Positions 39,443 to 55,440 of a stretch of 64,000 nt of DNA are shown here, piece after piece (positions within the stretch are counted from its first letter, which is position 1; each line of letters starts with the position of its first letter). This DNA is from Gammaproteobacteria bacterium. GTDB taxonomy: Bacteria > Pseudomonadota > Gammaproteobacteria > Pseudomonadales > Ketobacteraceae. The stretch spans positions 124,001-188,000 of the forward strand of contig JABLXQ010000006.1 of assembly GCA_013178375.1 (NCBI GenBank), written 5' to 3'. The notes beneath the pieces are model-generated. The model was given only the letters and a program-made list of their open reading frames with translations, was not told where the DNA came from and did no database searches. Position numbers and translations under genes: made by a program.

Positions 39443-40675
39443 TTATTTCAGATCGGGAGCCAGCGGCACGTCGATGCTGCCGTCGAGATATTTCTTCGGC
39501 CCGTCGACATTGGGCTTCACATCGAACTCGAAAATATCCGTGGGCAGCCAGAGGGTGGCGCAGGCGTTGGGCACATCCACCACACCACTGATATGACCCT
39601 GCACTGGCGCGGTGCCCAGAATCGCGTAGGCCTGCGCGCGGCTGTAACCGAACTTGGTGAGATATTCGATCGCGTTCAGACAGGCCTGACGATAGGCGAT
39701 GTGCACGTCGAGATAATGCTGCTTGCCCTGCTCATCCACCGAGATGCCTTCGAAGATCAGGTAGTCGTCATATTTCGGCGTGATGGGGCTGGGTTTGAAA
39801 ATCGGATTCTTGATGCCGTATTTCTTCATGCCGTCCTTGATCAGGCTGACCCGCAGGTGAATCCAGCCCGCCATTTCGATAGCGCCGCAAAACGTTATTT
39901 CGCCGTCGCCCTGACTGAAGTGCAGATCGCCGACGGACAGCCCGCCGCCTTTGACATAGACGGGGAAATACACTTTCGAACCGCGCGACAGATCCTTGAT
40001 GTCGCAGTTGCCGCCGTGTTCGCGCGGAGGCACGGTGCGCGCGCCTTCGGCCGCCGCCACCGCTGCATCTTCTTTTTTCATCTTGCCCATGTGCGCGGTG
40101 GGTGCGTAGGGCAGGTTGGCGAGGCCAGGCACGCGGGTGGGATCGGTGTCGAACAGTTCCTTCTCGCGCTTGTTCCATTCCGCCAGCATTTCCTTCGACG
40201 GCAGGCAGCCGATCAGGCCGGGGTGAATCAAGCCGGCGAATTCCACGCCGGGCACGTGGCGGGATTTGGTGAACATGCCGTTGAAATCCCATATCGATTT
40301 CTGTGCCTCGGGAAAATGTTCGGTGAGGAAACCGCCGCCGTTTTTCTTCGAGAAAAATCCGTTGAAACCCCACAGGCTTTCTTGAAAGGCGCCGATGTCG
40401 AGAATGTCCACCACCAGCAGATCGCCGGGCTCGGCGCCTTCCACGCCCACCGGGCCAGACAGGAAATGCACCTGCGACAGATCCACGTCGCGCACATCGG
40501 CAGCGTCGTCATTGTTTTTGATCTGGCCGCCGGTCCAGTCGTAGCACTCGATAATGAAATCATCGCCGGGCTTGACCATCGCCGCCATCGGAATATCCGG
40601 ATGCCAGCGGTTGTGGATGGTGTCCTGTTCGTAGGGCGATTTCTTCAGGTCGATTTTGATGATGGTCTCAGCCAT
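39443..40675 (-). CDS. fmdA: Formamidase/acetamidase family amidohydrolase
   Basis: The 410-residue protein matches the FmdA/AmdA family: IHNRWHPDIPMAAMVKPGDDFIIECYDWTGGQI at the start, HFLSGPVGVEGAEPGDLLVVDI in the first third, and YSRAQAYAILGTAPVQGHISGVVDVPNACATLWLP near the end. Length equals the roughly 407 residues of Methylophilus FmdA. These metal-dependent enzymes hydrolyse formamide and short amides to carboxylate and ammonia in the cytoplasm. It sits directly downstream of the urtABCDE-like transporter genes, which should supply the substrate. GAGGTGA precedes the ATG. Confidence 0.93.
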   Translation of the reverse strand: MAETIIKIDLKKSPYEQDTIHNRWHPDIPMAAMVKPGDDFIIECYDWTGGQIKNNDDAADVRDVDLSQVHFLSGPVGVEGAEPGDLLVVDILDIGAFQESLWGFNGFFSKKNGGGFLTEHFPEAQKSIWDFNGMFTKSRHVPGVEFAGLIHPGLIGCLPSKEMLAEWNKREKELFDTDPTRVPGLANLPYAPTAHMGKMKKEDAAVAAAEGARTVPPREHGGNCDIKDLSRGSKVYFPVYVKGGGLSVGDLHFSQGDGEITFCGAIEMAGWIHLRVSLIKDGMKKYGIKNPIFKPSPITPKYDDYLIFEGISVDEQGKQHYLDVHIAYRQACLNAIEYLTKFGYSRAQAYAILGTAPVQGHISGVVDVPNACATLWLPTDIFEFDVKPNVDGPKKYLDGSIDVPLAPDLK

Positions 40676-40745: not shown

Positions 40746-41435
40746 TCACACCGACAGGTAGGCCGCGATTTTTGCCTCGTTGACATTGGCGCGCTCTTCC
40801 TCCGCCACGATGTCACCTTTTTCCAGCACCAGAATGCGATCGGCAATATCCAGTGCGAAACTCAATACCTGTTCGGACACGATGATCGACAAACCTTTTT
40901 CATCGCGGATGCGTTTCAGCGTGCGCGCCATTTCGCGAATGATCGACGGCTGGATACCTTCAGTGGGTTCATCGAGCAGAAGCAGTTTGGGCCGGCTCGC
41001 CAGCGCGCGGGCAATGGCCAGCTGTTGCTGCTGGCCGCCGGACAGATTGCCGCCGCGTCGGGATTTCATTTCCAGCAGCACGGGAAACAGGTCGTACAGA
41101 TCCTGCGGAATTTTTTTGTCTTTCACCGTGGTGAGTCCGGTTTCGATGTTTTCCTTCACGGTCATGGTGGAAAAAATCATGCGGCCCTGGGGCACGAAAC
41201 CGACGCCACTGGCCACGCGCTGGTGGCTTTTCATCGACGTGAGATCGGTGCCATCCAGTTTCACGCTGCCCTTGCGGCTGGGCAGGATGCCCATCAGGGA
41301 TTTCATCAGCGTGGTTTTGCCCATGCCGTTGCGGCCCATGATGGCGACGATTTCCTTCGGTTTGATTTCGAAATTCAGGTTGTGGATGACTTCGCTCTGG
41401 CCATAGGCCACCTGATATTGCGATACGGAAAGCAT
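40746..41435 (-). CDS. urtE: Urea/short-amide ABC transporter ATP-binding protein UrtE
   Basis: The 229-residue ATPase has Walker A (GRNGMGKTT), the ABC signature (LSGGQQQQLAIARAL) and Walker B (LLLLDEPTEG), followed by the UrtE segment IQPSIIREMARTLKRI. It powers import together with UrtD. The true start is the ATG at 41435 (GAGGAG upstream), 10 bases after the urtD stop; the ORF extension upstream is a urtD shadow. Close relatives in Methylophilus are fmd genes for amide uptake. Confidence 0.93.
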   Translation of the reverse strand: MLSVSQYQVAYGQSEVIHNLNFEIKPKEIVAIMGRNGMGKTTLMKSLMGILPSRKGSVKLDGTDLTSMKSHQRVASGVGFVPQGRMIFSTMTVKENIETGLTTVKDKKIPQDLYDLFPVLLEMKSRRGGNLSGGQQQQLAIARALASRPKLLLLDEPTEGIQPSIIREMARTLKRIRDEKGLSIIVSEQVLSFALDIADRILVLEKGDIVAEEERANVNEAKIAAYLSV

Positions 41436-41445
41436 GGTGTGCTCC

Positions 41446-42210
41446 TCAATGGCCCAGATAAACTTCGACGACTTTGGGATCGGTCTTGACCCGTTCCATG
41501 GAGCCTTCCGACAACACCTTGCCCTGATGCAGCACGGTGACGCGGTCGGCGATGTCTTCCACAAACTGCATGTCGTGTTCGATCACGATTACGGAACGGT
41601 TCTTGGTGATGCGATGCAGCAGTTCGGCGGTCTGTTTGCGTTCGGCGACCGACATGCCGGCCACCGGTTCATCGAGCATCAACAGGTCGGGGTTCTGGAT
41701 CAGCAGCATGCCGATCTCCAGCCACTGTTTCTGGCCGTGGCTGAGCAGGCCCGCTTCCTTGCCGAGCAGATCCTTGAGAAAAATCATTTCCGCGATTTCC
41801 TCCACCTTCTCGATAACTTCCCTGTCCCGCTTGAAGGTGAGCGCGCCCCACACATTGCGTCCTCTCGGATAGGAAATTTCCAGGTTCTCAAACACCGACA
41901 GATCTTCGTAGATCGACGGATTCTGGAACTTGCGGCCGACCCCGGCGTGCACGATCTGGTGCTCCTTCATTTTGGTAAGTTCCTTGCCGCGGAACTTGAT
42001 GGAGCCCGTGGTGGCTTTGGTGCGGCCGCAGATCAGATCCAGCACTGTGGTTTTGCCTGCGCCATTGGGGCCGATGATGACGCGGATTTCGTTTTCATCG
42101 ACGTAGAACGACAGATCGTTGACCGCCTTGAAACCGTCGAAGGAAACCGTGAGCCCTTCCACTGCGAGGACGAAATCCTTGGCGCCAATGCTTACGTTGG
42201 AAATGGTCAT
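41446..42210 (-). CDS. urtD: Urea/short-amide ABC transporter ATP-binding protein UrtD
   Basis: The 254-residue ATPase has Walker A (IGPNGAGKTTVLDLICGRT), the family signature LLSHGQKQWLEIGMLL (a SHGQ form usual in UrtD), and Walker B (LLMLDEPVAGM). The FDGFKAVNDLSFYV segment before Walker A is typical of UrtD. It is paired with UrtE and is the fourth gene of the transporter set, 3 bases after urtC. AGGAG is 6 bases before the ATG. Confidence 0.94.
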   Translation of the reverse strand: MTISNVSIGAKDFVLAVEGLTVSFDGFKAVNDLSFYVDENEIRVIIGPNGAGKTTVLDLICGRTKATTGSIKFRGKELTKMKEHQIVHAGVGRKFQNPSIYEDLSVFENLEISYPRGRNVWGALTFKRDREVIEKVEEIAEMIFLKDLLGKEAGLLSHGQKQWLEIGMLLIQNPDLLMLDEPVAGMSVAERKQTAELLHRITKNRSVIVIEHDMQFVEDIADRVTVLHQGKVLSEGSMERVKTDPKVVEVYLGH

Positions 42211-42213
42211 GGT

Positions 42214-43353
42214 TCAGCTCCTGGATTCCAGCGGATTGGTGGTGAGCGGTCGCGGGGTTTTCAGATTGGCGAGCCATTTGTCGACGCGCGGTGCCACCCA
42301 GGTCTGATACAAACCGGCCAGACCGTTGGGGAAAGCCAACACCACTGCGATGAACAAACCGCCCATGGCCAGCAACCACAATTCAGGAAAACTTTCCGAG
42401 AAACTGGTTTTGGCCCAGTTCACCAGCAGCGTGCCGTACACCGCGCCGAGCAGTGAAAGGCGGCCGCCGACGGCGCAGAAAATTACCATTTCAATGGACG
42501 GCACGATGCCGACGAAGGACGGCGACATGAAACCCACCTGCAAGGTGAACATGGCGCCACCGATGGCAGAAAATGCGGCGCCGAGGCAGAACACGAAAAT
42601 CTTGAAATTGGAAACGTCGTAGCCGGAGAAGCGCACGCGGTCTTCCCTTTCGCGCATTGCTACCAGCAGGCGGCCGAGCTTGCTCTTGCGCACGTACTGC
42701 GCCGCGAACAGACACAGGAACAGTATGGCCACGTTGACGAAGTACAGAATGTATTTCGCTTCGTCGGAGCGGATGTCCCAGCCTTTCAGCGTACGCAGGT
42801 CGGTGATGCCGTTGACGCCGCCGGTGTAGCCCTGCTGGCCGATGATCAGGATGGTGAGGATCGCAGCAAGTGCCTGGGTGATGATGGCGAAGTACACGCC
42901 GCCGACACGACGCTTGAACATGGCCACGCCGATGAAGTAGGCGAAGATGGATGGCACCACGATCACCGCAATCAGGGTGAAGGTCAGGCTGTGGAAGGGT
43001 TGCCAAAAAAATGGCAATTCGGTGAGCTGGTTCCAGTCCATGAAATCCGGAATGCCCGGGGTGGACTGGATTTTGGTGGCTTCCGGATTGGAGGCTTCCA
43101 GTTTCAGGAACATCGCCATGCAGTAACCGCCGAGGCCGAAGAACACGCCCTGACCCAGGCTGAGAATGCCGCCATAACCCCAGCACAGCACCAGACCCAG
43201 CGCGACAAACGCGTAGGTAAGATATTTGCCCACCAGATTGAGGCGGAAAATATCCATCGACAGCGGAAAGATCACCAGCAGCAGTATCGCCAGCAGCGCG
43301 AAGCCGAGCAGATCCTGTTGCGGAAGGTAGGATTTGAAACCGTGATATGACAT
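42214..43353 (-). CDS. urtC: Urea/short-amide ABC transporter permease UrtC
   Basis: The 379-residue permease has about 9-10 membrane helices and the LivM/UrtC-family motifs WGYGGILSLGQGVFFGLGGYCMAMFL near the N-terminus and FSAIGGAMFTLQVGFMSPSFVGIVPSIEMVIFCAVGGRLSLLGAVYGTLLVN later, the EAA-like coupling region. It forms the channel with UrtB. The ATG is preceded by AAGGAGA. There are 32 bases from urtB. Confidence 0.94.
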   Translation of the reverse strand: MSYHGFKSYLPQQDLLGFALLAILLLVIFPLSMDIFRLNLVGKYLTYAFVALGLVLCWGYGGILSLGQGVFFGLGGYCMAMFLKLEASNPEATKIQSTPGIPDFMDWNQLTELPFFWQPFHSLTFTLIAVIVVPSIFAYFIGVAMFKRRVGGVYFAIITQALAAILTILIIGQQGYTGGVNGITDLRTLKGWDIRSDEAKYILYFVNVAILFLCLFAAQYVRKSKLGRLLVAMREREDRVRFSGYDVSNFKIFVFCLGAAFSAIGGAMFTLQVGFMSPSFVGIVPSIEMVIFCAVGGRLSLLGAVYGTLLVNWAKTSFSESFPELWLLAMGGLFIAVVLAFPNGLAGLYQTWVAPRVDKWLANLKTPRPLTTNPLESRS

Positions 43354-43385: not shown

Positions 43386-44312
43386 TTAGCGACGAATCTT
43401 CAGTGCGAACAGACCTTGTGGCCGCAGCATCAGGATGCCGACCACCACCAACAGCGTGAGCACTTTCGCCATGGAACCGCTGAGGAAAAATTCCATGGTG
43501 GATTGCGCCTGCGAAATGGTGAACGCCGATGCGATGGTGCCGAGCAGACTGGATGCGCCGCCGAACACCACCACCAGGAAGGTGTCGACAATATAGAGCT
43601 GACCGGACGTGGGGCCGGTGGAACCGATCATGGTGAAGGCGCTGCCCGCGATACCGGCGATGCCGCAACCCAGCGCGAACGTCATGCGGTCGACTTTTTC
43701 GGTGTTGATGCCTACCGCGCCGGCCATGGTGCGGTTTTGCACCACGGCGCGCACCTGGCAACCCCAGCGCGAGCGATACATCATCAGGGCAACACCAACG
43801 GCGATGATCAGGGTGAGACCCATGACGAACAGACCATTGATGGGGATTTCGATGGATTCACTGAGTGCGACGGAACCCATCAGCCAGTCCGGCAAGGTGA
43901 CGCCGACTTCGCGGGCACCGAATACCGAACGGTAAATCTGTTGCAGGATCAGGCTCAGACCCCAGGTGGCCAGCAGCGTGTCGAGCGGACGCTTGTACAG
44001 GTGACGGATCAACCCCCATTCCACCAGCGCCCCGAGCGCAAAGGTGACGATGAAGGCGAGTATCATCGCCACGAAAAAATAGATGTCGAAAAGATTCTGT
44101 GCATACTCGGAAAAAATATGGGACGTCAGATAGGTGATATAGGCGCCCAGGATCATGAATTCGCCGTGAGCCATGTTGATCACGCCCATCTGGCCGAAGA
44201 TGATCGCGAGTCCCAGCGCCATCAGAACGAAAACGGAAAACAGAATGAGTCCGGCAAATGCCTGCATCGCGAAGATGGATGTCAGTTCTGCCATGCTGTA
44301 GTCGGCGAACAT
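43386..44312 (-). CDS. urtB: Urea/short-amide ABC transporter permease UrtB
   Basis: The 308-residue permease of the LivH/UrtB group has about eight helices, GLAIIFGQMGVINMAHGEFMILGAY near the start and GGASSLLGTIASAFTISQAQSTMEFFL near the end. It lacks the long N-terminal extension found in some UrtB proteins. The ATG is preceded by AGGAGG. A 268-base gap with a large inverted repeat separates it from urtA, so expression of the binding protein and the permeases can differ. Confidence 0.93.
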   Translation of the reverse strand: MFADYSMAELTSIFAMQAFAGLILFSVFVLMALGLAIIFGQMGVINMAHGEFMILGAYITYLTSHIFSEYAQNLFDIYFFVAMILAFIVTFALGALVEWGLIRHLYKRPLDTLLATWGLSLILQQIYRSVFGAREVGVTLPDWLMGSVALSESIEIPINGLFVMGLTLIIAVGVALMMYRSRWGCQVRAVVQNRTMAGAVGINTEKVDRMTFALGCGIAGIAGSAFTMIGSTGPTSGQLYIVDTFLVVVFGGASSLLGTIASAFTISQAQSTMEFFLSGSMAKVLTLLVVVGILMLRPQGLFALKIRR

Positions 44313-44580: not shown

Positions 44581-45843
44581 TCACTGATAACCTTCCGGAA
44601 ACGGATCGGGCTCCATCAGCTCCTTGGTTTCGTACACCACTTTGTACTGCCCATCCAGCTGCGCGTGACCGATGCGGGTTTTCGACCACAGGTGATGATT
44701 CGGGTGAATCTTCACGTAACCTTCCGGCGCGGTCGTCAGTTCAATACCCGGAGACGCAGCCTTGATCTTGTCGATATCAAACGACCCGGCTTTCTCCACC
44801 GCCGCCTTCCACAACCAAGGCCCCAGATAAGCCGCCTGCGTCACATCGCCGATCACAATGTCCTTGCCCCACTTCGCCTTGAACGCTTCAACAAATTTCT
44901 TGTTGTTGTCGTTGTCCAGACTCTGGAAATATTTCATCGACGCGTAGGCACCCACCATGTTCTCGCCACCGATCCCCAGGATCTCGTCCTCGGTCACAGA
45001 AATGGTCAGCACCAGCGGTTTTTCCTTGGTCATGTCGATACCGGCAGCTTTCAGCTGCTTGTAAAACGCCACGTTGGAACCACCCACCACAATTGCGTAG
45101 ATGACATCGGGCTTTTTCAGCTTGATCTTGTTGATCACCGAGTTGAACTGCGTGTGGCCCAGCGGGTAATACTCCTCACCCACCACTTTCAGACCCAGCT
45201 TCTCGATGTGCTTGCGTGCAATCTTGTTGGAAGTACGCGGCCAGATATAATCCGAGCCCAGCAGATAAAACGACTTGGCGCCTTTCTCCTTCACCACCCA
45301 GTCGATGCCGGCCAGAATCTGCTGCGTGGCTTCCTGGCCGGTGTAAATCACGTTGGGTGATTCTTCCAGACCTTCATAAAACGTCGGGTAATACAGCATG
45401 CCGTTGTACTGCTCGAACACGGGCAACACCGCCTTGCGCGACGCTGAGGTCCAGCAGCCGAACACTGCCGCCACCTTGTCGTTCACCAGCAATTTTTTCG
45501 ATTTTTCTGCGAAGGTCGGCCAGTCGCTGGCGCCGTCTTCCTGAATGAATTCAATCTTGCGACCCAGAACGCCCCCCATGGCGTTGATCTGGTCGATGGC
45601 GAGTTTTTCCGCCTGCACCGATCCGGTTTCGCTGATCGCCATGGTGCCGGTGACGGAATGCAGAATGCCCACTTTCACGGTGCTGTCGGTTACCGCCAGG
45701 CCGGTGGTGTTCACCTCGGCGGTGGACGCCGCCAGTGCGGAATGGCTCAGCAGCATGGCGGCCGGCAGCGCGAGCATGCCCTGCAGTATCCGCCGCCGCA
45801 GCGACGAGTGTGGTTTTTTGGAGCCAGGGAATTTTGTCAGCAT
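44581..45843 (-). CDS. urtA: Urea/short-amide ABC transporter substrate-binding protein UrtA
   Basis: The 420-residue periplasmic protein has a signal peptide with a twin-arginine-like start (SSLRRRILQGMLALPAAMLL, cleavage near ALA). Then comes the type I periplasmic-binding fold of UrtA/FmdD/AmiC: VKVGILHSVTGTMAISETG, FGCWTSASRKAVLPVFE, LYYPTFYEGLEESPNVIYTG and NSYAxxK-type late segments. The binding-site segments are shared by urea and short-amide binding proteins, so the ligand cannot be settled; fmdA downstream favours amides. Start ATG 45843 with GAGAGG. It is first in the operon and divergent from the sensor kinase. Confidence 0.93.
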   Translation of the reverse strand: MLTKFPGSKKPHSSLRRRILQGMLALPAAMLLSHSALAASTAEVNTTGLAVTDSTVKVGILHSVTGTMAISETGSVQAEKLAIDQINAMGGVLGRKIEFIQEDGASDWPTFAEKSKKLLVNDKVAAVFGCWTSASRKAVLPVFEQYNGMLYYPTFYEGLEESPNVIYTGQEATQQILAGIDWVVKEKGAKSFYLLGSDYIWPRTSNKIARKHIEKLGLKVVGEEYYPLGHTQFNSVINKIKLKKPDVIYAIVVGGSNVAFYKQLKAAGIDMTKEKPLVLTISVTEDEILGIGGENMVGAYASMKYFQSLDNDNNKKFVEAFKAKWGKDIVIGDVTQAAYLGPWLWKAAVEKAGSFDIDKIKAASPGIELTTAPEGYVKIHPNHHLWSKTRIGHAQLDGQYKVVYETKELMEPDPFPEGYQ

Positions 45844-45959
45844 GGTACAACCTCTCAGGCAATCGGATCGGAATGGGACACCGTGTGTCGGGACCGAGTA
45901 TTGATTGCCTGCCCGCGCGCGCCAATTCGGGAAATGCCCCAGGGCGTCGCGTCGAACTA

Positions 45960-45971
45960 CGTCAAATGACG
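45960..45971. promoter_or_regulatory. Inverted repeat in the urtA/sensor divergent region
   Basis: CGTCAaaTGACG is an inverted repeat (5-base arms) near the middle of the 287-base region between urtA (45843) and the sensor (46131). It is a candidate binding site for the adjacent REC-LuxR regulator. Nearby GCGTCG repeats may add sites. The region has no gene. Confidence 0.35.
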
Positions 45972-46038
45972 CATAGGGCTGGCAGGGTGGACGGGGTATT
46001 TTGCGTAGGTAGCCGGCCTTCCATTAACCGGCTTCGGC

Positions 46039-46130: not shown

Positions 46131-49100
46131 ATGACCGCTCGCCAGCAGATTTTTCGCGTCCGCCGCAACTACAACCAGTGGGTGGCCAACCAGACCCTGG
46201 AGGACTACGCCCTGCGCTTTACTGCCAAGCGGGCGCGGCGCTGGTCGCTGGCGCGGGTGGCAAACACGGCGCTGGGGGCGATTTCATTTCTGGCGCTGGA
46301 GGCCATCGGCGGCGCGGTCACCCTCAGCTACGGCTTCGACAATGCCGTGGTCGCCATCATGGTGGTGGGGCTGATCATCTTCCTCACCGGCATGCCCATC
46401 GCCTTTTATGCTGCAAAATATGGCATCGATATAGATTTGCTCACTCGTGGTGCAGGCTTCGGCTATATCGGCTCCACCATCACGTCGCTGATCTACGCGT
46501 CGTTTACCTTTATTTTCTTCGCGCTGGAAGCGGCCATCATGGCCATGGCGCTGGAAATCCTGCTCGGTATTCCGCAGACCATCGGCTATCTGCTCAGTTC
46601 GCTGCTGGTGATTCCCCTGGTGACCCACGGGATTACCTTTATCAGCCGGTTCCAGCTGTGGTCGCAGCCGCTATGGATGGCGTTGCAGATACTGCCGTTC
46701 GTGTATATCGCGCTGCACGACATCGGCTCGGTGCAGGACTGGACCCAATATGAAGGCCTGCACGGTCACGGCGCGGGCGGCTTGAATATCCTGCTGTTCG
46801 GCGCCGCGTCGTCGGTGATTTTTTCCCTGATCGCGCAGATCGGCGAGCAGGTGGATTTCCTGCGCTTTTTGCCGCCGCCACAGGAAGGCAAAAAACTGCG
46901 CTGGTGGCTGGCGATGCTGGCGGCGGGGCCGGGCTGGATCATTGTCGGTACTTTGAAAATTCTCGCGGGCTCTTTCCTGGCGGTGCTGGCGCTGAAACAC
47001 GGTGTGCTGGCGGACGATGCCGCCGATCCCACCCGCATGTACAGCATTGCGTTTGGCTACATCACAACGTCGCCGGATTTTGCGCTGGCGCTGGCGGGCA
47101 TTTTCGTCATCCTGTCGCAGCTGAAAATCAACGTCACCAATTCCTACGCCGGTTCCATCGCCTGGTCGAATTTTTTCTCGCGGCTCACGCACAGCCATCC
47201 CGGCCGGGTGGTGTGGCTGGTGTTCAACGTGGCGATCGCGCTGCTGCTGATGGAGCTGGGCATCTACCGCGCGCTGGAAAGCATTCTCGGTGTGTACGCG
47301 ATTGTGGCAGTGGCCTGGGTGGGCTCGCTGGTGGCGGATCTGGTGATTAACAAACCGCTGGGATTCAGCCCGCCGCAGATCGAATTCAAACGCGCGCATC
47401 TGTATGACATCAACCCGGTAGGATTCGGCTCCATGATTCTGGCGTCGCTGCTGGGCATCAGCGCGCATCTGGGCTCGTTCGGTGAAGTGCCGCAGGCGCT
47501 GTCGCCGTATGTGGCGCTGGGTTCTGCGTTCGTGCTGGCGCCGCTGATTGCCTGGTGGACCAAGGGCCGCTACTACATCGCCCGCATGCCCGAGACGATT
47601 TTCTGCAGCGGCGAAACCGTCACTTGCTGTATCTGCGAACACGCCTTCGAGCCGGAAGACATTACCACCTGCCCGGCCTACGGCGGCCACATCTGCTCGC
47701 TGTGCTGTTCGCTGGATGCCCGCTGCCAGGATCTGTGCAAACCGGATGCGCGCCTGTCGCGCCAGATCATCAGCCTGTTACGCGGCGTGCTGCCGGACCG
47801 CATCACCGACGCCCTCAATTCAAGGCTTGGCCATTTCCTCGGTCTGCTGCTGCTGATCGGTGGCTGCATCGGTCTTCTGCTCACCCTGGTGTATTACCAG
47901 ATTCCCGTCACCGATGCGGCCACGGCCAACCTGATCGGTACCGTGCTGTGGAAGGAATTTTTCATTCTGCTGATCGTGGCCGGCGTGGTGGCCTGGCTGT
48001 TTATTCTGGCGCACGAAAGCCGGGAGGTGGCGCAGGAGGAATCGCAACGGCAAACGCGCCTGCTGGAAGAAGAAATCATCGCCCACGAACGCACCGATCT
48101 GGCCTTGCAGAAAGCGAAGGAAGTGGCGGAAGCGGCGAACCATGCCAAGAGCCGTTACCTCACCGGCATCAGTCACGAATTGCGTACACCACTCAACGCC
48201 GTACTCGGGTACGCGCAACTGCTGGAACAGGACGACGAGATTCCGCATTCCCGCCGCGAAGCCATTTCCACCATCCGCCGCAGCAGCGAACATCTGGCGG
48301 ATCTGATTGAAGGCCTGCTCGATATTTCAAAAATTGAAGCGGGCCGACTCGATCTGCACCGCGACCAGGTGCGCATCCGTTCGTTGCTGGATCAGATCGT
48401 GCAAATGTTCCGACTGCAGGCGGAAGCCAAGGGCGTCCTGTTCGAATATCACAACGAAGGTTTCCTGCCGGAATACGTGGCCACCGATGAAAAGCGCCTG
48501 CGCCAGATCCTGATCAACCTGCTGTCGAACGCCATCAAGTTCACCGAGTGGGGCGGTGTGTCATTCAGCGTGCGTTATCGCAGTCAGGTGGCCGAGTTCA
48601 CCATTCGCGACAGCGGCGTCGGCATTCACAAGGACGATATTGAACGCATCTTCCGGCCCTTCGAACGGGTGCGTAAATCCGGCGCCAATCCCGTGCCCGG
48701 CACCGGGCTGGGCCTCACCATCACCCGCCTGCTCACCGACATCATGGGTGGCGACATCGCCGTGCAGAGTGAGCCCGGTGTCGGCAGCACCTTTACCGTC
48801 AGCCTGATGCTGTCGCGCATCGACACGCCCTGTGAAGCACCCGTGGTGGAAAAACAGATTCGCGGCTACCAGGGCGCGCGCAAGTTGCTGATGGTGGTGG
48901 ATGATGATCCGTCCCACCGCGGCCTGATCAGCGATCTGCTCACGCCGCTGGGTTTTGGTGTGGTGGAAGCGGCGTGCGGTGCCGATTGTCTGACGCTGGC
49001 TCGGCAGTGTCACGCGGATGCTTTTCTGCTGGATGTGTCCATGCCCGGCATGACGGGCTGGCAACTGGCCGAGACGCTGCGCAGCAATGGCGTGATTGCG

Positions 49101-49508
49101 CCCATCGTGATGATTTCCGCCGACGCCCGCGAAGGCCAGCGCGACCAGCACGATGCCGATGCACCGCCACGCTGGCACGACGACTACGTGGTGAAACCAG
49201 TGCGCCTGCAGATGCTGCTGGAAAAACTCGGCGTACTGCTGCGGCTCACCTGGTTCTACGAACGCGAGCAGGCGGAATTCGAGCCGGTGCCACAGCGCTT
49301 TCCACCGGAGCAGCTGCCGTCCGCGCAAGTGCTGCAGGAACTGCGCACGCTGGCGGAAATCGGCTACGTCAATGGACTCAAGCAGAAAATCCAGCAACTA
49401 CGCCAGGAGGGCAGCGCCACACCGGAATTCATTGCCGTGCTGCAGAATCTCACCAGCCAATTCCGGTTCGACCGCATCATCGAAATTGCACAAACGGTGA
49501 AACCATGA
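46131..49508 (+). CDS. NCS1 transporter-fused hybrid sensor histidine kinase
   Basis: The 1125-residue protein has, in order: an NCS1 (purine-cytosine permease-like) domain of about 12 helices (residues 12-482; RRNYNQWVANQTLEDYALRF at the start); a Cys-rich module with ten Cys in 45 residues (492-536, CCICEHAF and HICSLCC, zinc-ribbon-like); two more helices; a coiled coil; HisKA (SRYLTGISHELRTPLNAVLGY, His682); HATPase_c (LLSNAIKF, DSGVGI, GTGLGL); and a receiver (VDDD, Asp968 in LLDVSMPG, Lys in VKPVR). It resembles CbrA-type transporter-kinases, but with NCS1 in place of SLC5. It probably senses, and may transport, a nitrogen compound. The frame is open to TTG 46077; no strong ribosome site decides. 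Confidence 0.9.
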   Translation: MTARQQIFRVRRNYNQWVANQTLEDYALRFTAKRARRWSLARVANTALGAISFLALEAIGGAVTLSYGFDNAVVAIMVVGLIIFLTGMPIAFYAAKYGIDIDLLTRGAGFGYIGSTITSLIYASFTFIFFALEAAIMAMALEILLGIPQTIGYLLSSLLVIPLVTHGITFISRFQLWSQPLWMALQILPFVYIALHDIGSVQDWTQYEGLHGHGAGGLNILLFGAASSVIFSLIAQIGEQVDFLRFLPPPQEGKKLRWWLAMLAAGPGWIIVGTLKILAGSFLAVLALKHGVLADDAADPTRMYSIAFGYITTSPDFALALAGIFVILSQLKINVTNSYAGSIAWSNFFSRLTHSHPGRVVWLVFNVAIALLLMELGIYRALESILGVYAIVAVAWVGSLVADLVINKPLGFSPPQIEFKRAHLYDINPVGFGSMILASLLGISAHLGSFGEVPQALSPYVALGSAFVLAPLIAWWTKGRYYIARMPETIFCSGETVTCCICEHAFEPEDITTCPAYGGHICSLCCSLDARCQDLCKPDARLSRQIISLLRGVLPDRITDALNSRLGHFLGLLLLIGGCIGLLLTLVYYQIPVTDAATANLIGTVLWKEFFILLIVAGVVAWLFILAHESREVAQEESQRQTRLLEEEIIAHERTDLALQKAKEVAEAANHAKSRYLTGISHELRTPLNAVLGYAQLLEQDDEIPHSRREAISTIRRSSEHLADLIEGLLDISKIEAGRLDLHRDQVRIRSLLDQIVQMFRLQAEAKGVLFEYHNEGFLPEYVATDEKRLRQILINLLSNAIKFTEWGGVSFSVRYRSQVAEFTIRDSGVGIHKDDIERIFRPFERVRKSGANPVPGTGLGLTITRLLTDIMGGDIAVQSEPGVGSTFTVSLMLSRIDTPCEAPVVEKQIRGYQGARKLLMVVDDDPSHRGLISDLLTPLGFGVVEAACGADCLTLARQCHADAFLLDVSMPGMTGWQLAETLRSNGVIAPIVMISADAREGQRDQHDADAPPRWHDDYVVKPVRLQMLLEKLGVLLRLTWFYEREQAEFEPVPQRFPPEQLPSAQVLQELRTLAEIGYVNGLKQKIQQLRQEGSATPEFIAVLQNLTSQFRFDRIIEIAQTVKP

Positions 49509-50416
49509 ATGATCTCCGGCAAGAACGTGATCTGGTGTTGGTGGTGGATGATTCGCCCGACACCCTCGGCATGCTCAATCACGCGCTGGACCAGGCCGGC
49601 TTCACCGTGCTGGTGGCGCTGGAAGGGCTGCAGGCGGTGAGCATCGCCCGCAAAATGTTGCCGGATATCATTTTGCTGGACGCAGTGATGCCGAACCTGG
49701 ACGGCTTCGCCACCTGTCGCATTTTAAAACGCGAACCGGATCTGGCGGACGTGCCGGTGATTTTCATGACCGGCCTCACCGACACCGACGACATTGTGAA
49801 AGGTCTGGAAGCCGGCGGCGTGGACTATGTTACCAAGCCGGTGAAACCGCAGGAGCTGATCGCCCGCATCCGTGTGCACCTGAGCAACGCGCGCCTAACG
49901 CAAAGTGCACGCACGGCGCTCGACACCGCCGGCCAGTTCCTGTTTGCCACCACCCGCGACGGCCAATTCCTGTGGGCCACGCCGCAGGTACATCACTTGT
50001 TTGAAAAATCCGGTGCCGACCGTTTCTGGCTCGACCAGCAACTCACACCGCAATTGCGCGCGGGTTTTCCGGCGCAGGCACTGCCCGGCAGCAATCTGCA
50101 ACTGGAGGGGCTTTCACAGCCGCTCAAGGTCAGTTATCTGGGGGAACCGGCGCCGGGGGAGCGTCTGCTGCGCCTGACCGATCCGGAACGGCCATCGGAA
50201 ACCGAAGCGCTGCGCAAGCATCTTGCGGTTACCGAGCGCGAAGCGGAAGTGCTGGTGTGGATCGCCCACGGCAAAACCAATCGTGAAATCGGCCAGATCC
50301 TCAGCATGAGTCCGCGCACGGTGAACAAACATCTGGAGCAGATCTTTCGCAAACTGGGCGTGGAAAACCGCACCACGGCGGCGGCAATGGCGTTACGGCA
50401 TCTGGGCACGGATTGA
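49505..50416 (+). CDS. REC-LuxR response regulator, partner of the NCS1 kinase
   Basis: The 303-residue protein has a receiver domain (VLVVDDSPDT, phosphoacceptor Asp59 in ILLDAVMPNLDG, Lys in VTKPVKP), then a middle region of about 100 residues of PAS-like appearance (TAGQFLFATTRDGQFLWATPQVHHLFE), and a C-terminal LuxR/FixJ helix-turn-helix (TEREAEVLVWIAHGKTNREIGQILSMSPRTVNKHLEQIFRKLGV). The start codon overlaps the kinase stop (ATGA), so the two are translationally coupled. The probable targets are urtA and its own operon, inferred from the divergent layout only. Confidence 0.94.
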   Translation: MNDLRQERDLVLVVDDSPDTLGMLNHALDQAGFTVLVALEGLQAVSIARKMLPDIILLDAVMPNLDGFATCRILKREPDLADVPVIFMTGLTDTDDIVKGLEAGGVDYVTKPVKPQELIARIRVHLSNARLTQSARTALDTAGQFLFATTRDGQFLWATPQVHHLFEKSGADRFWLDQQLTPQLRAGFPAQALPGSNLQLEGLSQPLKVSYLGEPAPGERLLRLTDPERPSETEALRKHLAVTEREAEVLVWIAHGKTNREIGQILSMSPRTVNKHLEQIFRKLGVENRTTAAAMALRHLGTD

Positions 50417-50434: not shown

Positions 50435-51709
50435 TCAGGCGGGCGCGACGCGGGAACCGTTGCCCGCATTCAGCTGCTTGTGTTTTTGTTTCTGCACCTG
50501 CATTGCCCGTTCGGCGCTGGTGATGAACGCCGACGCATCCCGATGCACTTCGGCCTGATACAGCGTGGTGCCTACGCTGGCGCTTACTTTCACCATGCCG
50601 TCTTCCAGCGTGAAAGGATTGTGCAGCAGGGAGGCGATCTTGTCGGCCAGATGCAGGGCTTTCGCTGATTGCTCCACTTCCGCCAGCACAAAAAATTCAT
50701 CGCTGCCGATGCGGGCGATGAAATCGCAGGCCCGCAGCAGGGTGCGCAGCCGCACCGACATGTGCCGGATCAGGTCGTCGCCCACATCGTGGCCGTGGCG
50801 TTCGTTCACCAGGTGGAAATCGTTCAGATCGATGAAGTAGCCCGCCAGCACCTGCTTGCCGCGTCCTGCGCGGGACATTGCGCGCTTCAATTCCTCCTCC
50901 AGATAGCCGCGGTTGGGCAACCCGGACAGGAAATCGAATTTCGCCATGCGCAGCAGATGATCTTCATGCTCCTTGCGTTCGGTGATGTCCTTGGCCACTG
51001 CATACAGGATGCCTTCCTCGGTCGACGCCGGCGTACTCCAGGCCAGCCAGCGCCAGCTGCCGTCTTTGCAGCGGTAGCGGTTTTCGAAATACAGCGAGTC
51101 CACGCCACTGCGCAGCTTGCGGATTTCTTTCAGGGTGGAGTCCACGTCGTCCGGATGAATGAATTCCAGGAAGGTGGTGCGTTGCAGTTCTTCCCTGGTG
51201 TAGCCCAGCACGCGGGTGAAGGCCGGATTCACCTCCAGGAAATAACCCATGGTGTTGGCCACGCAGAGCAGATCGTTGGACAGCGAGAACAGGCGTTCGT
51301 AATGTTGCTGGCTGGCATCGTAGCCGGTACGGTCGCCCAGATTCTGCACCAGGCAATAATAATCGCCACCGGGATTGGTGCCCTCGGCGCGACACAGGTT
51401 CACATAGAGGTACAGCGTGGCGCCGCTGGCATTCGCTGTGCGCAGGACGGCATGGCCCTGGCCCGCGCTTTCCAGCTGTTTCATGGCGGCATCGATGCGA
51501 TTGCGGTCGAAGGGATGAAACAGACTGAACCAGGAGCGTCCCTCCAGCTCGTTTACAGGAATATCCAGCAGCCGCGAGATGCCCTCGTCTGCGTAGAGAA
51601 TGTCGCTGTTGCCTGTTACTTGCAGTGACCCGTCCAGCAGGTTGCGGACTGGGGGCTGCGGTCGGCTGGATCCTTCCATCCGGTCTGTTTCCATCCGGGT
51701 TTGCTTCAC
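50435..51709 (-). CDS. PAS-PAS diguanylate cyclase-like protein with GSDEF motif
   Basis: The 424-residue soluble protein has two PAS domains (about 20-125 and 135-245, ending DITERKEHEDH) and a GGDEF domain (FDFLSGLPNRGYLEEEL onward). The active site reads ARIGSDEFFVL: the second Gly of GGDEF is Ser. An intact I-site RACD lies five residues before. Such variants range from active to c-di-GMP-binding only, so the output is uncertain. It is convergent with the REC-LuxR gene, 18 bases apart, and has no HTH or EAL domain. Confidence 0.9.
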   Translation of the reverse strand: MKQTRMETDRMEGSSRPQPPVRNLLDGSLQVTGNSDILYADEGISRLLDIPVNELEGRSWFSLFHPFDRNRIDAAMKQLESAGQGHAVLRTANASGATLYLYVNLCRAEGTNPGGDYYCLVQNLGDRTGYDASQQHYERLFSLSNDLLCVANTMGYFLEVNPAFTRVLGYTREELQRTTFLEFIHPDDVDSTLKEIRKLRSGVDSLYFENRYRCKDGSWRWLAWSTPASTEEGILYAVAKDITERKEHEDHLLRMAKFDFLSGLPNRGYLEEELKRAMSRAGRGKQVLAGYFIDLNDFHLVNERHGHDVGDDLIRHMSVRLRTLLRACDFIARIGSDEFFVLAEVEQSAKALHLADKIASLLHNPFTLEDGMVKVSASVGTTLYQAEVHRDASAFITSAERAMQVQKQKHKQLNAGNGSRVAPA

Positions 51710-51834
51710 GTTGGTTTGACGGCTGTGGTGGGTTACCTGTTCCAGTCTAGCACAGCCTGATAACGGGTGAAGTCAGGTGCAGTGTCGACTGAAGATACCG
51801 GCGCGGCATGGGTTGCCGCGCCAGGCGGGTGTGG

Positions 51835-52455
51835 CTACTTGCGGATGCCTTCCACGGAAATATAGATCTGGGCCGACTGGGCGGAGGGGCCCAGGTTGTA
51901 ATCGATGCCGAAATCCTTCAGCACGATTTCTGTTGTGGCTTCAAAGCCTTGGCGATGGCCGCCCCAGGGATCATCGCCGCCGCCAATGTAGGTGGCCGCC
52001 AGAACGACAGGCTTGGTGATGCCCTTGAGCGTCAGGTTGCCGTGAATGTTGGCGGTCTTGTCACCGGTTTTTTCAACCTTGGTGCTGGCGAATGTTGCTT
52101 TGGGAAATTTTTCCACGGCGAAGAAATCATCGCCGCGCAAGTGCTTATCGCGCTCGGCGTGGTTGGAATTCAAGCTGGCCACGTCGATGTCCACACTGAC
52201 GCTGGAACTTTCGATCTTGTCCTTGTCCAGGGTGAACTCGCCCTTGAAGGTGTCGAAGCGGCCCAGCAGCCAGCTGAATCCCAGGTGCTTGATCTTGAAC
52301 TGGACAAAAGCATGGACGTTCTCGGTGTCGAGTACGTATTTTTCCGGCGCTGCCTGGGCGGGCGTGCTGATCAGTAGTGCAGGCAGCAGGGCGCCGGGCA
52401 GCAGCAGGGCCGAGGTCAGGGCGGTGATGCGGGCGGTCTTGAGCAGGGTTTTCAT
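51835..52455 (-). CDS. yceI: YceI family periplasmic protein
   Basis: The 206-residue protein has a signal peptide ending near STPAQA and a lipocalin-like YceI barrel: KYVLDTENVHAFVQFKIKHLGFSWLLGRFDTFKGEFTLD, then SVDIDVASLNSNHAERDKHLRGDDFFAVEKFPKATF, and ends with AQIYISVEGIRK. YceI binds isoprenoids such as polyprenyl compounds in relatives. It follows the cytochrome b561 gene on the same strand, a common pair in proteobacteria. ATG at 52455 has AAAGGA 7 bases upstream; the larger frame to 53082 is an out-of-phase overlap with the b561 gene. Confidence 0.92.
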   Translation of the reverse strand: MKTLLKTARITALTSALLLPGALLPALLISTPAQAAPEKYVLDTENVHAFVQFKIKHLGFSWLLGRFDTFKGEFTLDKDKIESSSVSVDIDVASLNSNHAERDKHLRGDDFFAVEKFPKATFASTKVEKTGDKTANIHGNLTLKGITKPVVLAATYIGGGDDPWGGHRQGFEATTEIVLKDFGIDYNLGPSAQSAQIYISVEGIRK

Positions 52456-52529
52456 GGGCGCGTCCTTTGATGTTGTTGCGGAAACGGTTGGTTGCTTTTT
52501 CCGGACGGGAACATAGCATGAATTGAGAT

Positions 52530-53099
52530 TCATTTGCATCCAGGCGACAGCATGCGTTTCAGGGTGGCATCGTGCTGGATGAAATGGTGCAGCAGGGCAG
52601 CGCCGCTGTGCAGCAGGATCAGTGCCCCCAGGCCGTAGGCAATCCAGCGATGCAGAAAGCCCATCGGTTCGGCAATGGCGGTGGGCCAGCTGCGCAGGGC
52701 GGGAAGCTGCCAGCCGAAAACCAGGTCGATGGGCTTGCCCTTGGCGGTGGTGATCACATAGCCGGTCACGCCCAGTGCCAGCAGCGTTATATAAAATGCC
52801 AGATGCACCAGCCTGGCCGACCACTGCTGCCAGCGCGGCGCCGGCAGGGGCGCGGGGTGAGGGTTGAGCAGATTCCACAACAGGCGGCCGACAGTGATCA
52901 GCACGATCGCCACCCCGGCGACTTTGTGCCAGTGGGGCAGGGTGGTATAGAGCGGATCGTAGTAGGTGAGGGTCACCATATAAATGCCCTCCACCAGCAG
53001 GAACAGCACCAGCACAAAGGAAATCCAGTGCAGCAGAATGCTGGTCCAGCCGAAACGGTCCCGGGTATTGCGCCATGTCCACTCCATGCCTAATTCCAT
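52530..53099 (-). CDS. Cytochrome b561 family protein
   Basis: The 189-residue membrane protein has four helices: FGWTSILLHWISFVLVLFLLVEGIYM, PHWHKVAGVAIVLITVGRLLWNLLNPHP, LVHLAFYITLLALGVTGYVIT and MGFLHRWIAYGLGALILLHSGAALLHHFI. The helix His residues are the haem b ligands. It moves electrons from the quinol pool, perhaps to YceI-linked reactions or superoxide defence. The start is uncertain: ATG 53099 or 53087; the frame is open to 53261. Confidence 0.88.
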   Translation of the reverse strand: MELGMEWTWRNTRDRFGWTSILLHWISFVLVLFLLVEGIYMVTLTYYDPLYTTLPHWHKVAGVAIVLITVGRLLWNLLNPHPAPLPAPRWQQWSARLVHLAFYITLLALGVTGYVITTAKGKPIDLVFGWQLPALRSWPTAIAEPMGFLHRWIAYGLGALILLHSGAALLHHFIQHDATLKRMLSPGCK

Positions 53100-53333
53100 C
53101 GCTCCATGCTGTCGTACCACCTCTTCACTGTAGTGTCCGGATCTGTGTGCGACCAGCGGAGCAGGCTGAAGGTTCAATTGCCCCTCACACCGGCCGACTA
53201 TACTGGTCGTGTTGCCAACTCCCGCAAAACCGGATCGATTTTTTCCTGAACATTTATCCATTCAAAAATTAAGGCTATAGTTTGATTTCAGTGAACGGAC
53301 GCACGCAGCCAGCGAACTCCACAGGGAATCTCT

Positions 53334-54821
53334 ATGGATAACGCTTTGCCCGGATTTGATTATTCCTGGCGCGCATTGATGGAATCGATGCCCGTCGCTG
53401 CCTGCATGTACGATCCGGAAGGCCATATTTTCTGGTACAACAGCGCCGCAGTGCGACTGTGGGGCCGACATCCTGATCCCAGGCGGGATCGCTGGTGCGG
53501 TTTCGTGCGCCATTACTGGCCCGACGGGGAGCTGATGCAGCCGGATGAATCTCCGTCCGCCCTGATTCTGCAGGGCAAGGCCATGGAGTCCGGTTTTGAG
53601 GCAATGGGCGAGCGTCCGGATGGCAGCAAGGTGTATTTCATTCCCCAGCTGCTAGCGTTGCATGACCGGCAGGGTAGCGTGGTCGGTGGCGTGAGCATGC
53701 TGCTGGACATTACCCCGCGGCGGGAAATGGAAGCCGCACTGCGCAGCCGGGAAACCGAATTTCGCGCCATCATCGAAAATTCGCCCGATGACATTGCGCG
53801 TTACGACCGGAATTGCCGCCGCATCTATGTGAACCCGTCGCTGGTGGCCTCGGTCGGCAAAACGCAACAGCAGCTGCTTGGCAGAACCATTCTGGACGAC
53901 TGGGACACACCCAGCGCCCGCCGCTTTCAACAGCACCTGCTCCGGGTGCGCGACAAGGGTGAAGGCGTGGGCTTTGAACTGTCCTGGCCTGCGGCAGCCA
54001 GCGGTGAAGTGCTGCATCGCTACGTGCGGATCGTGCCGGAATTCGACACTGAAGGTCAGGTGCAGAGCATGCTGGCCGTTGGCCGCGACATCGGCGTGAT
54101 CAAACAGACGGAACAGTACCTGCGCCACTCCCGCGCTCTGCTGCGGGATCTGGCGGAGCGGCGGGAAGCCTTGCTGGAAGCCGAGCGCAAACGCATCGCC
54201 CGGGAAATTCATGATGAACTGGGGCAACTGCTCAATACACTGCATTTCAGCAACGCGGCCCTGCGTGCCAGGCTGGAGCAGGACAATCCGGCCCTGGTGG
54301 AAAAATCCGATGCGATGGCCGGCCTGATCCGGCGCGCGGTCGACGAATTGCGTAACGTGGCGACCAGCCTGCGCCCGGCAGCACTGGATGCCGGAATTGT
54401 CTGCGCTCTGGAATGGCTCACGCAGGATTTCAGCCAGCACACCGGTATTGTGTGCCGTTTCGCCAGTGAGCAGGACGAGGTCGACCTGCCGGAGTTTCTG
54501 GCCGTTGCCCTGTTCCGCATCGTGCAGGAATCCCTGACCAACGTGGCGCGCCATGCGGGCGCCAGCAAGGCCACGGTGCAACTCAGCGCGCGCCCCGACC
54601 AGCTGATGGTGGAGGTGCGCGATAACGGCAAGGGTTTCGTGGTGACAATGCCCGGCCGACGCAATTCGCTGGGGCTGGTGGGTATGCAGGAACGCGCCCT
54701 GGCGCTTGCCGGCCGCCTCGACATCACCAGCGAGCCGGGGCTGGGTACCTGTGTGCGGGCCACGATTCCACTGCTGCAAACCAGGACAAATGTGAATGAT
54801 CAGAATTCTGCTGGCGGATGA
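53334..54821 (+). CDS. PAS-PAS histidine kinase of the NarX/HisKA_3 type
   Basis: The 495-residue soluble kinase has two PAS domains (residues about 10-125 and 135-255), then a HisKA_3 dimer domain with His293 in RIAREIHDELGQLLNTLH, and a C-terminal HATPase_c (FRIVQESLTNVARHAGAS, VRDNGKGF, GLVGMQERALALAG). No membrane helices are seen, so it senses a cytoplasmic or diffusible signal. It overlaps the next response-regulator gene by 26 bases. Confidence 0.93.
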   Translation: MDNALPGFDYSWRALMESMPVAACMYDPEGHIFWYNSAAVRLWGRHPDPRRDRWCGFVRHYWPDGELMQPDESPSALILQGKAMESGFEAMGERPDGSKVYFIPQLLALHDRQGSVVGGVSMLLDITPRREMEAALRSRETEFRAIIENSPDDIARYDRNCRRIYVNPSLVASVGKTQQQLLGRTILDDWDTPSARRFQQHLLRVRDKGEGVGFELSWPAAASGEVLHRYVRIVPEFDTEGQVQSMLAVGRDIGVIKQTEQYLRHSRALLRDLAERREALLEAERKRIAREIHDELGQLLNTLHFSNAALRARLEQDNPALVEKSDAMAGLIRRAVDELRNVATSLRPAALDAGIVCALEWLTQDFSQHTGIVCRFASEQDEVDLPEFLAVALFRIVQESLTNVARHAGASKATVQLSARPDQLMVEVRDNGKGFVVTMPGRRNSLGLVGMQERALALAGRLDITSEPGLGTCVRATIPLLQTRTNVNDQNSAGG

Positions 54822-55428
54822 CCATACCCTGTTTCGGGCCGGGCTGAAGCAGCTGCTGGAACAGCACGACGATATCAGGATTGAGGCCGAAGCCAGTACC
54901 GGTGGTGAGGTGCTGGAACAATTGCGCCATCAGGAATACGACCTGTTGCTGCTGGACATCAGCATGCCGGGCGTCAGCGGCAGTGACCTGATCGGCCGCG
55001 TGCGCACCCGCTGCCCGCAATTGCCGATTCTGGTGCTGAGCATGTACAACGAACCGCAACTGGCCCGGCGCAAACTGAAGGCGGGCGCTGCCGGCTACAT
55101 CACCAAGGACACCGATGCAGCGATGCTGGTAAGCGCCATTCGCAAGGTGGCGGCCGGCGGCCATTTCATTGCGCCGGATCTGGCGGAGCAGATGGTGTTT
55201 CAGGATGATGCCGTCACCACCCCCAGACCGCACACCCTGCTGACGGAACGTGAATTGCAGATACTGCGCATGCTGGTGAAAGGCAAGGGGTTGAACGAGA
55301 TCGCCAGCGAACTCACCATCAGCAACAAGACCGTCAGTACCCACAAGGTGCGCATGATGCGCAAGATGAATATCACATCGAACGCCGAACTGATCCGCTA
55401 TGCGATCACCCATGGCATCACTCCATAA
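54796..55428 (+). CDS. NarL/FixJ-type response regulator
   Basis: The 210-residue protein has a receiver (ILLADDHTLFRAGLK, Asp54 in LLLDISMPGVSG, Lys in YITKDT) and a LuxR helix-turn-helix (LTERELQILRMLVKGKGLNEIASELTISNKTVSTHKVRMMRKM). It is the evident partner of the overlapping kinase. The start lies inside the kinase gene. A GGDEF-EAL gene follows 12 bases later, so the three may form one operon. Confidence 0.94.
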   Translation: MIRILLADDHTLFRAGLKQLLEQHDDIRIEAEASTGGEVLEQLRHQEYDLLLLDISMPGVSGSDLIGRVRTRCPQLPILVLSMYNEPQLARRKLKAGAAGYITKDTDAAMLVSAIRKVAAGGHFIAPDLAEQMVFQDDAVTTPRPHTLLTERELQILRMLVKGKGLNEIASELTISNKTVSTHKVRMMRKMNITSNAELIRYAITHGITP

Positions 55429-55440
55429 GGTTGAGCAGTA

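Follow-up and report, generated by a model that had tools for sequence, protein, structure and literature searches.

An NCS1-fold transporter-kinase fusion with a LuxR-type partner, linked to amide and urea operons in Proteobacteria, as a candidate sensor

Histidine kinases that carry a transporter are already known among the SLC5-STAC kinases and the Amt kinases. In CbrA, CrbS and RpuS, which belong to the SLC5-STAC kinases, a whole LeuT-fold transporter stands before the histidine kinase, and the partner regulator governs the uptake or the use of a nutrient (PMC13022988, PMC9100948, PMC5715377). The Amt sensor kinase is alike in pairing a transporter fold with a histidine kinase, in its case for a nitrogen compound (PMC5764959). 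Here we describe an NCS1-type transporter-kinase fusion, encoded in a window of 64,000 nucleotides (the whole stretch of DNA that was analysed, positions 124,001 to 188,000 of contig JABLXQ010000006.1, assembly GCA_013178375.1, from a gammaproteobacterium of the Ketobacteraceae). Such a fusion is new within the literature searched: no description of an NCS1-kinase fusion was found in open-access papers, subscription papers lying mostly outside the search. At the level of sequence, we establish the fusion, its NCS1 fold, its partner regulator, a conserved linkage to urt/fmd or urt/ure operons and a conserved palindrome. We propose that the protein is a transceptor-type kinase which probably senses urea or short-chain amides and activates their uptake and hydrolysis; the ligand, the transport and the direction of control are what we infer. 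To our knowledge, the bacterial sensing of extracellular urea and simple amides is largely open, and the fusion offers a candidate urea/amide receptor for many genera, along with predictions of its regulator and of its DNA site.

The fusion is a single open frame of 1125 residues (46131-49508, plus strand). Its domains follow each other as transporter-like domain, cysteine module, two hydrophobic segments, long helix, HisKA, HATPase, receiver and tail. The NCS1-fold transporter-like domain covers residues 1-485 (46131-47585, plus strand like all parts of the fusion) and was recognised with AlphaFold2, Foldseek, VIA and hhalign. The cysteine module (residues 499-536, 47625-47738) and two further hydrophobic, transmembrane segments (residues 562-628, 47814-48014; present in 140/140) come next, and in the predicted model the second of these segments runs on as a long helix towards HisKA. 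Counts of this kind refer to a non-redundant set in which 175 fusions were cut to 140 at 95% identity (95 at 85%). Pfam then places HisKA at residues 672-738 (48144-48344), with the phospho-acceptor His682 in 140/140, HATPase_c at residues 785-894 (48483-48812) and the receiver, Response_reg, at residues 921-1033 (48891-49229), with Asp968 in 138/138 of the proteins carrying that column. With the histidine in HisKA, the HATPase_c domain and the aspartate in the receiver, the protein is a hybrid histidine kinase. N-terminal of HisKA, the Pfam and NCBIfam scan of the fusion gave no domain above cut-off, and the NCBIfam kinase matches among the rows shown were all below cut-off and started at residue 628 or later. 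In the tail after the receiver no conserved histidine was found (no column above 37/140), and no histidine phosphotransfer (HPt) domain was seen in the fusion, a separate HPt protein not having been sought. The ATGA at 49505-49508 is the stop of the fusion overlapping the start of the next gene, which encodes on the same strand a response regulator of the LuxR/NarL type with Pfam matches to Response_reg and GerE (49505-50416, plus strand). This pair is divergent from urtABCDE-fmdAB. The original prediction had described one polypeptide joining a permease-like domain, a cysteine module, a kinase and a receiver, coupled through ATGA to a LuxR regulator and facing this operon; the open frames, the overlap, the Pfam domains and the family matches confirm it.

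Its description of a ten-cysteine module stands in part: ten cysteines are present in the window protein between residues 492 and 536, and only eight are conserved, these being invariant in 140/140 fusions. Of the other two, C492 is unique to the window copy and C500 is found in 64/140. The nature of the module was looked for by fold and by sequence. Fold searches with the module and the hairpin gave no match with E <= 0.001, the best VIA hit (Z 7.0) aligning helices only, and RING, PHD and LIM chains appeared in Foldseek only at E 1.6 and above. The sequence search with the module gave no significant match.

We then looked at the identity of the N-terminal domain. The AlphaFold2 model, which spans residues 1-546 and was built on 20 sequences, has a pLDDT of 77.4 and a pTM of 0.81. 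Searched with Foldseek, it returned exclusively CodB and Mhp1 at ranks 1-5 (E 1.3e-10 to 2.9e-7), and VIA gave a Z of 32.7 for CodB (root-mean-square deviation 3.5, 396 residues aligned) and 25.4-27.6 for Mhp1, the next LeuT-fold row scoring 23.2. Comparison by hhalign with a profile of CodB and six PF02133 relatives reached a probability of 98.2% (E 3.4e-14, 388 columns). A standalone homologue that is 30% identical to the domain passes PF02133 with 36.4 bits for a cut-off of 23.5. The window protein itself has no match to Pfam PF02133, and a search of PDB sequences with the profile of the N-terminal domain missed CodB and Mhp1, its best match being unrelated (E 0.72). Since the structure comparison, the profile comparison and the standalone homologue agree, we take the domain, as predicted and modelled, to be an outlying branch of NCS1. 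The NCS1 assignment made in the original prediction is therefore upheld by the predicted structure and the profile comparison and not by Pfam. An SLC5 transporter domain was also considered and was rejected, NCS1 structures outranking SLC5 folds in both the Foldseek and the VIA lists.

The ligand pocket was compared with that of CodB, in which the Na2 site is described as formed by G29, F32 and N275 through the main chain and by T278 and T279 through their side chains, and the substrate as contacted by Q105, W108 and F204, plus N280 via water (PMC9379551). In the profile alignment, T278 of CodB falls on K332, T279 on I333, W108 on F129, F204 on L233, Q105 on T126 and N280 on N334. K332 and N334 are invariant in the 140 fusions, as are Q236, E239, Q240, D242, N337 and Y339. 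I333 is found in 139/140, with valine in the remaining one, F129 in 128/140, with leucine in the other 12, and L233 in 135/140, with methionine in 5. Neither of the two Na2 side-chain ligands of CodB is thus conserved in the fusions, and because T278 and T279 are replaced by an invariant lysine and by isoleucine, a CodB-like Na+ coupling of the domain appears unlikely. K332 may take the place of the sodium ion, and the lost stacking aromatic would suit a small ligand without a ring. A nucleobase, which the original prediction had kept among the possible ligands beside an amide or urea, is disfavoured by the content of the operons and by the loss of a stacking aromatic, CodB having two such residues, one of which falls on leucine in the fusion. 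The NCS1 family also includes H+-coupled members, and one NCS1 protein, MetT, is reported to be able to take a ring-free guanidine compound (PMC13390362). CbrA is described as proton-driven in a paper of which one section covers the protonation of K196 (PMC13022988).

These residues bear on a particular version of the proposed sensing, in which the NCS1 domain would be a working permease and flux through it would drive the kinase, as discussed for CbrA. The transporter core is full-length and highly conserved, and the SLC5 part of CbrA was reported to import histidine (PMC13022988). Both side-chain Na2 ligands are changed, though, so that CodB-type coupling to Na+ is unlikely and coupling to protons may occur instead, and an ATP-binding cassette (ABC) transporter for the same substrate class adjoins the fusion. 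We consider this version rather unlikely, if by no means negligible.

The distribution of the fusion was determined in genomes and plasmids. In an order-level draw of 194 genomes the domain was present in 51, as 46 long fused frames, one frame cut by a contig end (G013) and four matches that are weak, standalone or fragmentary (G032, G039, G146, G169), and in a phylum-level draw of 398 genomes it was present in 56, 52 of them with the fused form; both draws were even. At least 593 relatives were matched when species genomes were scanned, and among plasmids 532/72,556 records matched, 342 of the 532 being from Klebsiella and 78 from Sinorhizobium. Carriers of the fusion are numerous in the Gamma- and Alphaproteobacteria and include one Burkholderiales genome (L143) as well as plasmids; among the genera are Bradyrhizobium, Sinorhizobium, Marinobacter, Alcanivorax, Pseudomonas and Halomonas. 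For the study of neighbours, 175 fusions were retained after exclusion of sequences shorter than 800 residues, cut or standalone (L078, L082, L094, L135, L165, L166, L167 and L246). The loci L083-L162 are the best 80 of the at least 593 relatives and are biased towards close ones, and the locus sets overlap (L104 with the G023 locus, L096 with the G136 locus).

Neighbouring genes in the fetched loci were identified by tblastn. A LuxR-type regulator lies directly downstream on the same strand in 166/169 loci with at least 1 kb of downstream sequence, and in 132/166 its estimated start does not lie beyond the kinase stop codon. The exceptions are L134, which failed the spacing rule and nevertheless has a regulator match at +3.4 kb, and L241 and L242, which have another layout: a shorter kinase without receiver (893 residues in L242), a partner of REC-HisKA-HATPase type and fmdA within 5 kb. 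Loci were called amide-type when urtA was at least 55% identical to that of the window or when fmdA was present, and urea-type when urtA was below 55% or when ureC was present. The tabulation of domain order and neighbours, which had been set beforehand as a test, showed urtA, fmdA or ureC near 163/175 fusions, 122 of them amide-type and 41 urea/urease-type, and neither type in the fetched stretch of the other 12. The refuting outcome named for this test, relatives of the fusion that never lie beside amide or nitrogen genes, did not occur. In the 5 of these 12 that were followed, the urt operon lay further off or on another contig in 5/5 (G126, G193, G030, G111, G048); of the rest, L065 is without operon and L088, L120, L141, L162 and L244 start at or near a contig end. 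The fetched stretch of a Bradyrhizobium locus (L093) showed no urtABCDE and has instead a divergent amiF match at 0.3 kb (38% over 284 residues to the plasmid amiF described below). In the phylum draw, 46 of 47 newly fetched fused loci have urtA, fmdA or ureC within ~10 kb, the one exception beginning at a contig end. A kinase could have come to lie beside urtABCDE by accident in the lineage of the window, kinases being common (73 HisKA matches at E <= 0.001 in its genome), but such an accident is hardly credible for a linkage that is kept in many Gamma- and Alphaproteobacteria, in the Burkholderiales genome and on plasmids.

A tree was drawn for 95 sensor domains, 87 of them labelled as amide or urea, and 3 changes of label suffice to explain it. 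Two hybrid copies occur in five genomes (G065, G150, G397, G418, G547), in each of which one copy is amide-type and the other urea-type. This touches another explanation, according to which the pair controls the operon and the signal is a metal or redox state read at the cysteine module, or the nitrogen status, the NCS1 domain being a scaffold or an uptake route only. The eight cysteines, invariant in 140/140, go beyond the need of a plain linker. They may also belong with the kinase, because in a standalone actinobacterial homologue from Tsukamurella, the one standalone homologue which keeps the region, the module is still recognisable and most of its cysteines are lost. The transporter core is equally invariant, with eight residues at 140/140, the sensor and the operon class switch together on the tree, and two sensors are kept in genomes with both operon classes. 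We therefore regard a metal, redox or nitrogen signal as a clearly unlikely source of control. Other standalone homologues were seen in Rhodococcus, one with hydantoinase genes and a PucR regulator next to it and the other beside an amidase gene, both with arginine at the K332 column (L166, L167). The Tsukamurella protein (L165:7947-9635) is NCS1-like, shares 43% identity with the domain of the window protein and is separated from fmdA by two small genes.

We then searched for a shared DNA element in the divergent regions, using 93 loci with a gap of 60-900 bp, cut to 56 at 80% identity. A TAC-N10-GTA dyad was present in 31/56 regions for 1.8 expected, with a z of 17.6 and a maximum of 6.0 in 12 shuffled sets, the shuffles, like those used below for the full element and for the urtA and fmdA sites, moving two-base blocks and so not being strict dinucleotide shuffles. 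The full element, TACGTCANNTGACGTA, had best matches with 0, 1 and 2 mismatches in 6, 22 and 9 of the 56 regions, which gives 37/56 at 2 or fewer mismatches out of 14 for 0.04 expected. In the window, the site TACGTCAAATGACGCA (45958-45973, no strand) is a candidate operator in the promoter region of the divergent genes, with its centre 123 bp upstream of urtA. The window genome holds one site at 1 mismatch or fewer, in the urtA/fusion region, and nine at two mismatches; the nine are at chance level, because with the reversed pattern 19 sites reach two mismatches or fewer.

The element also tracks the presence of the domain. TACGTCAWWTGACGYA at 1 mismatch or fewer was found in 40/47 order genomes with the domain as against 27/147 without it (Fisher P 1.3e-16), and the reversed-pattern control gave 5/47 and 22/147 (Fisher P 0.63). 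In this split of 194 genomes (40/7/27/120, 67 with a site), which includes genomes used for the discovery of the motif, the 47 include the contig-cut G013 and the 147 include G032, G039, G146 and G169. Besides the 23 order loci given below, seven order genomes have their site before urtA (G126, G193, G030, G183, G161, G065, G150); in G193 a perfect site precedes an urt-ure operon on a contig other than that of the fusion. The site stays before urtA where urtA is 1.7-9.8 kb away from the fusion (L148, L153, L163, L222, L224, L226, L234, L075, L233); L163 is the urea-type copy carried on pSymB by Sinorhizobium meliloti 1021. Urea-type urtA promoters have a site at 2 or fewer mismatches in 18/28, and in 12/21 of those outside the discovery set, some of the 21 being kin of discovery loci. 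An fmdA gene over 600 bp away from urtE has a site of its own (2 or fewer mismatches) in 12/19 cases, about 95-168 bp upstream of it, and one adjoining urtE in 6/60; in these tests of urtA and fmdA sites, distances were for most rows measured from 20 bases inside the gene. Overall, 88/174 loci hold a site at 2 or fewer mismatches anywhere, and 86 of these 88 have one no further than 700 bp upstream of urtA, fmdA or the fusion. A variant, TACGCA-N4-TGCGTA, is found instead in 18/93 divergent regions. These results give weight to the earlier claim that the fusion is tied to genes for the uptake and hydrolysis of amides or urea, which both the conserved linkage and the palindrome uphold, and they argue that the kinase-regulator pair very probably controls the urt/fmd or urt/ure operon.

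The LuxR-type regulator would be the natural candidate to bind the palindrome. When its recognition-helix residues were read from the alignment, position 274 was asparagine (N274) in 53/55 loci with TACGTCA half-sites and aspartate or threonine in 15/18 loci with TACGCA half-sites. Alternatively, the palindrome could serve another regulator of urt/fmd, with the adjacent pair controlling something else. Consistent with this, the palindrome is associated with the entire locus, its covariation with the regulator loses significance once kinship is considered, and many loci have the pair without the site. It is opposed by the site following the domain over the 194 genomes; by G151, a member of the family of the window with an urtA match of 491 bits, just under the family cut-off, and neither fusion nor palindrome at 1 mismatch or fewer; and by L043 and L047, where the recognition helix is divergent and no TACGTCA-type site is found at 3 or fewer mismatches. 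A separate regulator for the palindrome thus appears quite improbable.

From these data a mechanism can be proposed. The NCS1-fold domain would bind its ligand, a small amide such as urea, formamide or a different short-chain one, from the outer side of the inner membrane, and binding in the core would move its cytoplasmic end. The cysteine module and the two extra helices could then relay the binding, or a transport cycle, to the HisKA helix. The kinase would phosphorylate the LuxR-type regulator translated together with it; the transfer may be direct, as the fusion shows no HPt, and the built-in receiver would act as a modulator. The regulator would bind TACGTCA-WW-TGACGYA before urtA, and before fmdA where this is a separate unit, and would activate high-affinity uptake by UrtABCDE and hydrolysis by formamidase, or by urease in the urea-type relatives. 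We infer here the binding of the regulator to the palindrome and the route of the phosphate, and we assume activation rather than repression. Judged from operon content alone, urea or a short-chain amide is the likely ligand read by the NCS1 domain.

Several observations weigh against this proposal. For the site, 23/47 order loci have in the fetched stretch a match at 1 mismatch or fewer that is no more than 500 bp upstream of urtA, fmdA or the fusion; the matches of G111 and G152 lie elsewhere and the remaining ones of the 40 are unplaced. No site at 2 or fewer mismatches is found in 54/121 amide, 21/41 urea and 11/12 unlabelled loci as fetched, some of the site-less loci carrying the TACGCA-N4-TGCGTA variant or having urtA outside the stretch. 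In five loci where ureC adjoins the fusion (L231, L236, L237, L239, L243) the fetched stretch contains no site, and their regulator may use another one. Among the held-out urtA promoters lacking a site at 2 or fewer mismatches, 7/9 are at 4 or more; a distance of 1.2-1.5 kb separates the site from urtA in L055, L058 and L077, and in G111 and G048 the urt operon lies ~20 kb from the fusion with no good site. In the window, a sigma-70 scan of the urtA/fusion intergenic region gave no sigma-70-like promoter. For the regulator, the covariation of residue 274 with the palindrome offers no more than two informative independent contrasts and falls short of significance when kinship is counted, 3/18 and 2/55 loci contradicting it. 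For the ligand, no conserved residue separates amide-linked from urea-linked sensors, only variable positions, so that the ligand cannot be read from the sequence; it could be the same for both groups, or something else. One locus is mixed, L223, where ureC is nearby and urtCDE, 61-71% identical to those of the window, are close to the amide class.

The operon that faces the fusion in the window is on the minus strand. Its first gene, urtA (44581-45843; TIGR03407, 559 bits), encodes a substrate-binding protein of the amide-associated class and is followed by the permease genes urtB (43386-44312; TIGR03409, 408 bits) and urtC (42214-43353; PF02653) and by the ATPase genes urtD (41446-42210; PF00005, PF12399) and urtE (40746-41435), the last being an open reading frame with an ATG start picked inside the listed frame, whose relatives adjoin urtD in other loci. 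The formamidase gene fmdA (39443-40675; NF045496, 788 bits, PF03069) and an fmdB-like gene for a zinc-ribbon protein (39053-39409; Zn_ribbon_8, PF09723, 41.6 bits) complete it. A terminator scan of the urtA/fusion intergenic region found nothing. On the other side, the locus is adjoined by a gene for a PAS-GGDEF protein (50435-51709, minus strand), and a second kinase-LuxR regulator pair is found nearby at 53334-55428, both from Pfam matches. Further open frames within 50435-57564 presumably encode proteins resembling YceI, a b561-type cytochrome and a PAS-GGDEF-EAL protein.

A copy of the system is carried by a Klebsiella pneumoniae plasmid (L164, CP024516.1), where amiF-urtEDCBA, amiF being a formamidase gene, faces the fusion and its regulator and the palindrome is present at one mismatch. 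The plasmid UrtA is 79% identical to the amide-class UrtA of the window, and urease-linked ones are at ~36-44%. The Klebsiella plasmid cluster has been called a urea transport system (PMC5506382, PMC13060141), and by word search the main text of these two papers contains neither 'histidine kinase' nor 'two-component'. From this sequence comparison, the 'urea transport system' of the Klebsiella ST307 plasmid may be a regulated amide system. Altogether, the data would fit a widespread proteobacterial family of amide/urea receptors derived from an NCS1 permease, with a lysine-filled sodium site, a lost aromatic, an eight-cysteine metal module, one operator, duplicates specialised for amide or urea and a move onto Klebsiella plasmids; as a whole this picture is tentative, and we lean slightly away from holding all of it.

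Compared with known systems, the operon class of the window is that of the formamidase-linked Urt cluster blr0968-blr0973 of Bradyrhizobium japonicum, which was proposed in 2010 to carry an amide and not urea, the regulator not being discussed in the available part of that paper (PMC3098086). The urtABCDE operon III of Ectopseudomonas guguanensis G3 is listed with a hybrid histidine kinase and a LuxR-family regulator; in the portion of that source covered here this is annotation only, with no NCS1 domain, operator or function proposed (PMC13296017). CodB and Mhp1 have the same fold as the N-terminal domain of the fusion and are permeases without a kinase, as is the NCS1 permease MetT, and CodB differs further in using an Na2 site whose two side-chain ligands are replaced in the fusion. 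The Amt sensor kinase of our comparison, which we take to be the ammonium sensor Ks-Amt5, is built on the Amt/Rh fold, which is unrelated to NCS1. The CbrA family has SLC5 where the fusion has NCS1, the fusion being linked to urt/fmd or urt/ure, and by position CbrA has STAC and PAS where the fusion has the eight-cysteine module and two transmembrane segments. The fusion thus represents a second LeuT-type transporter family, besides SLC5, that is joined to a kinase, and apparently with a different connector, which helps to ask how a transporter cycle drives a kinase.

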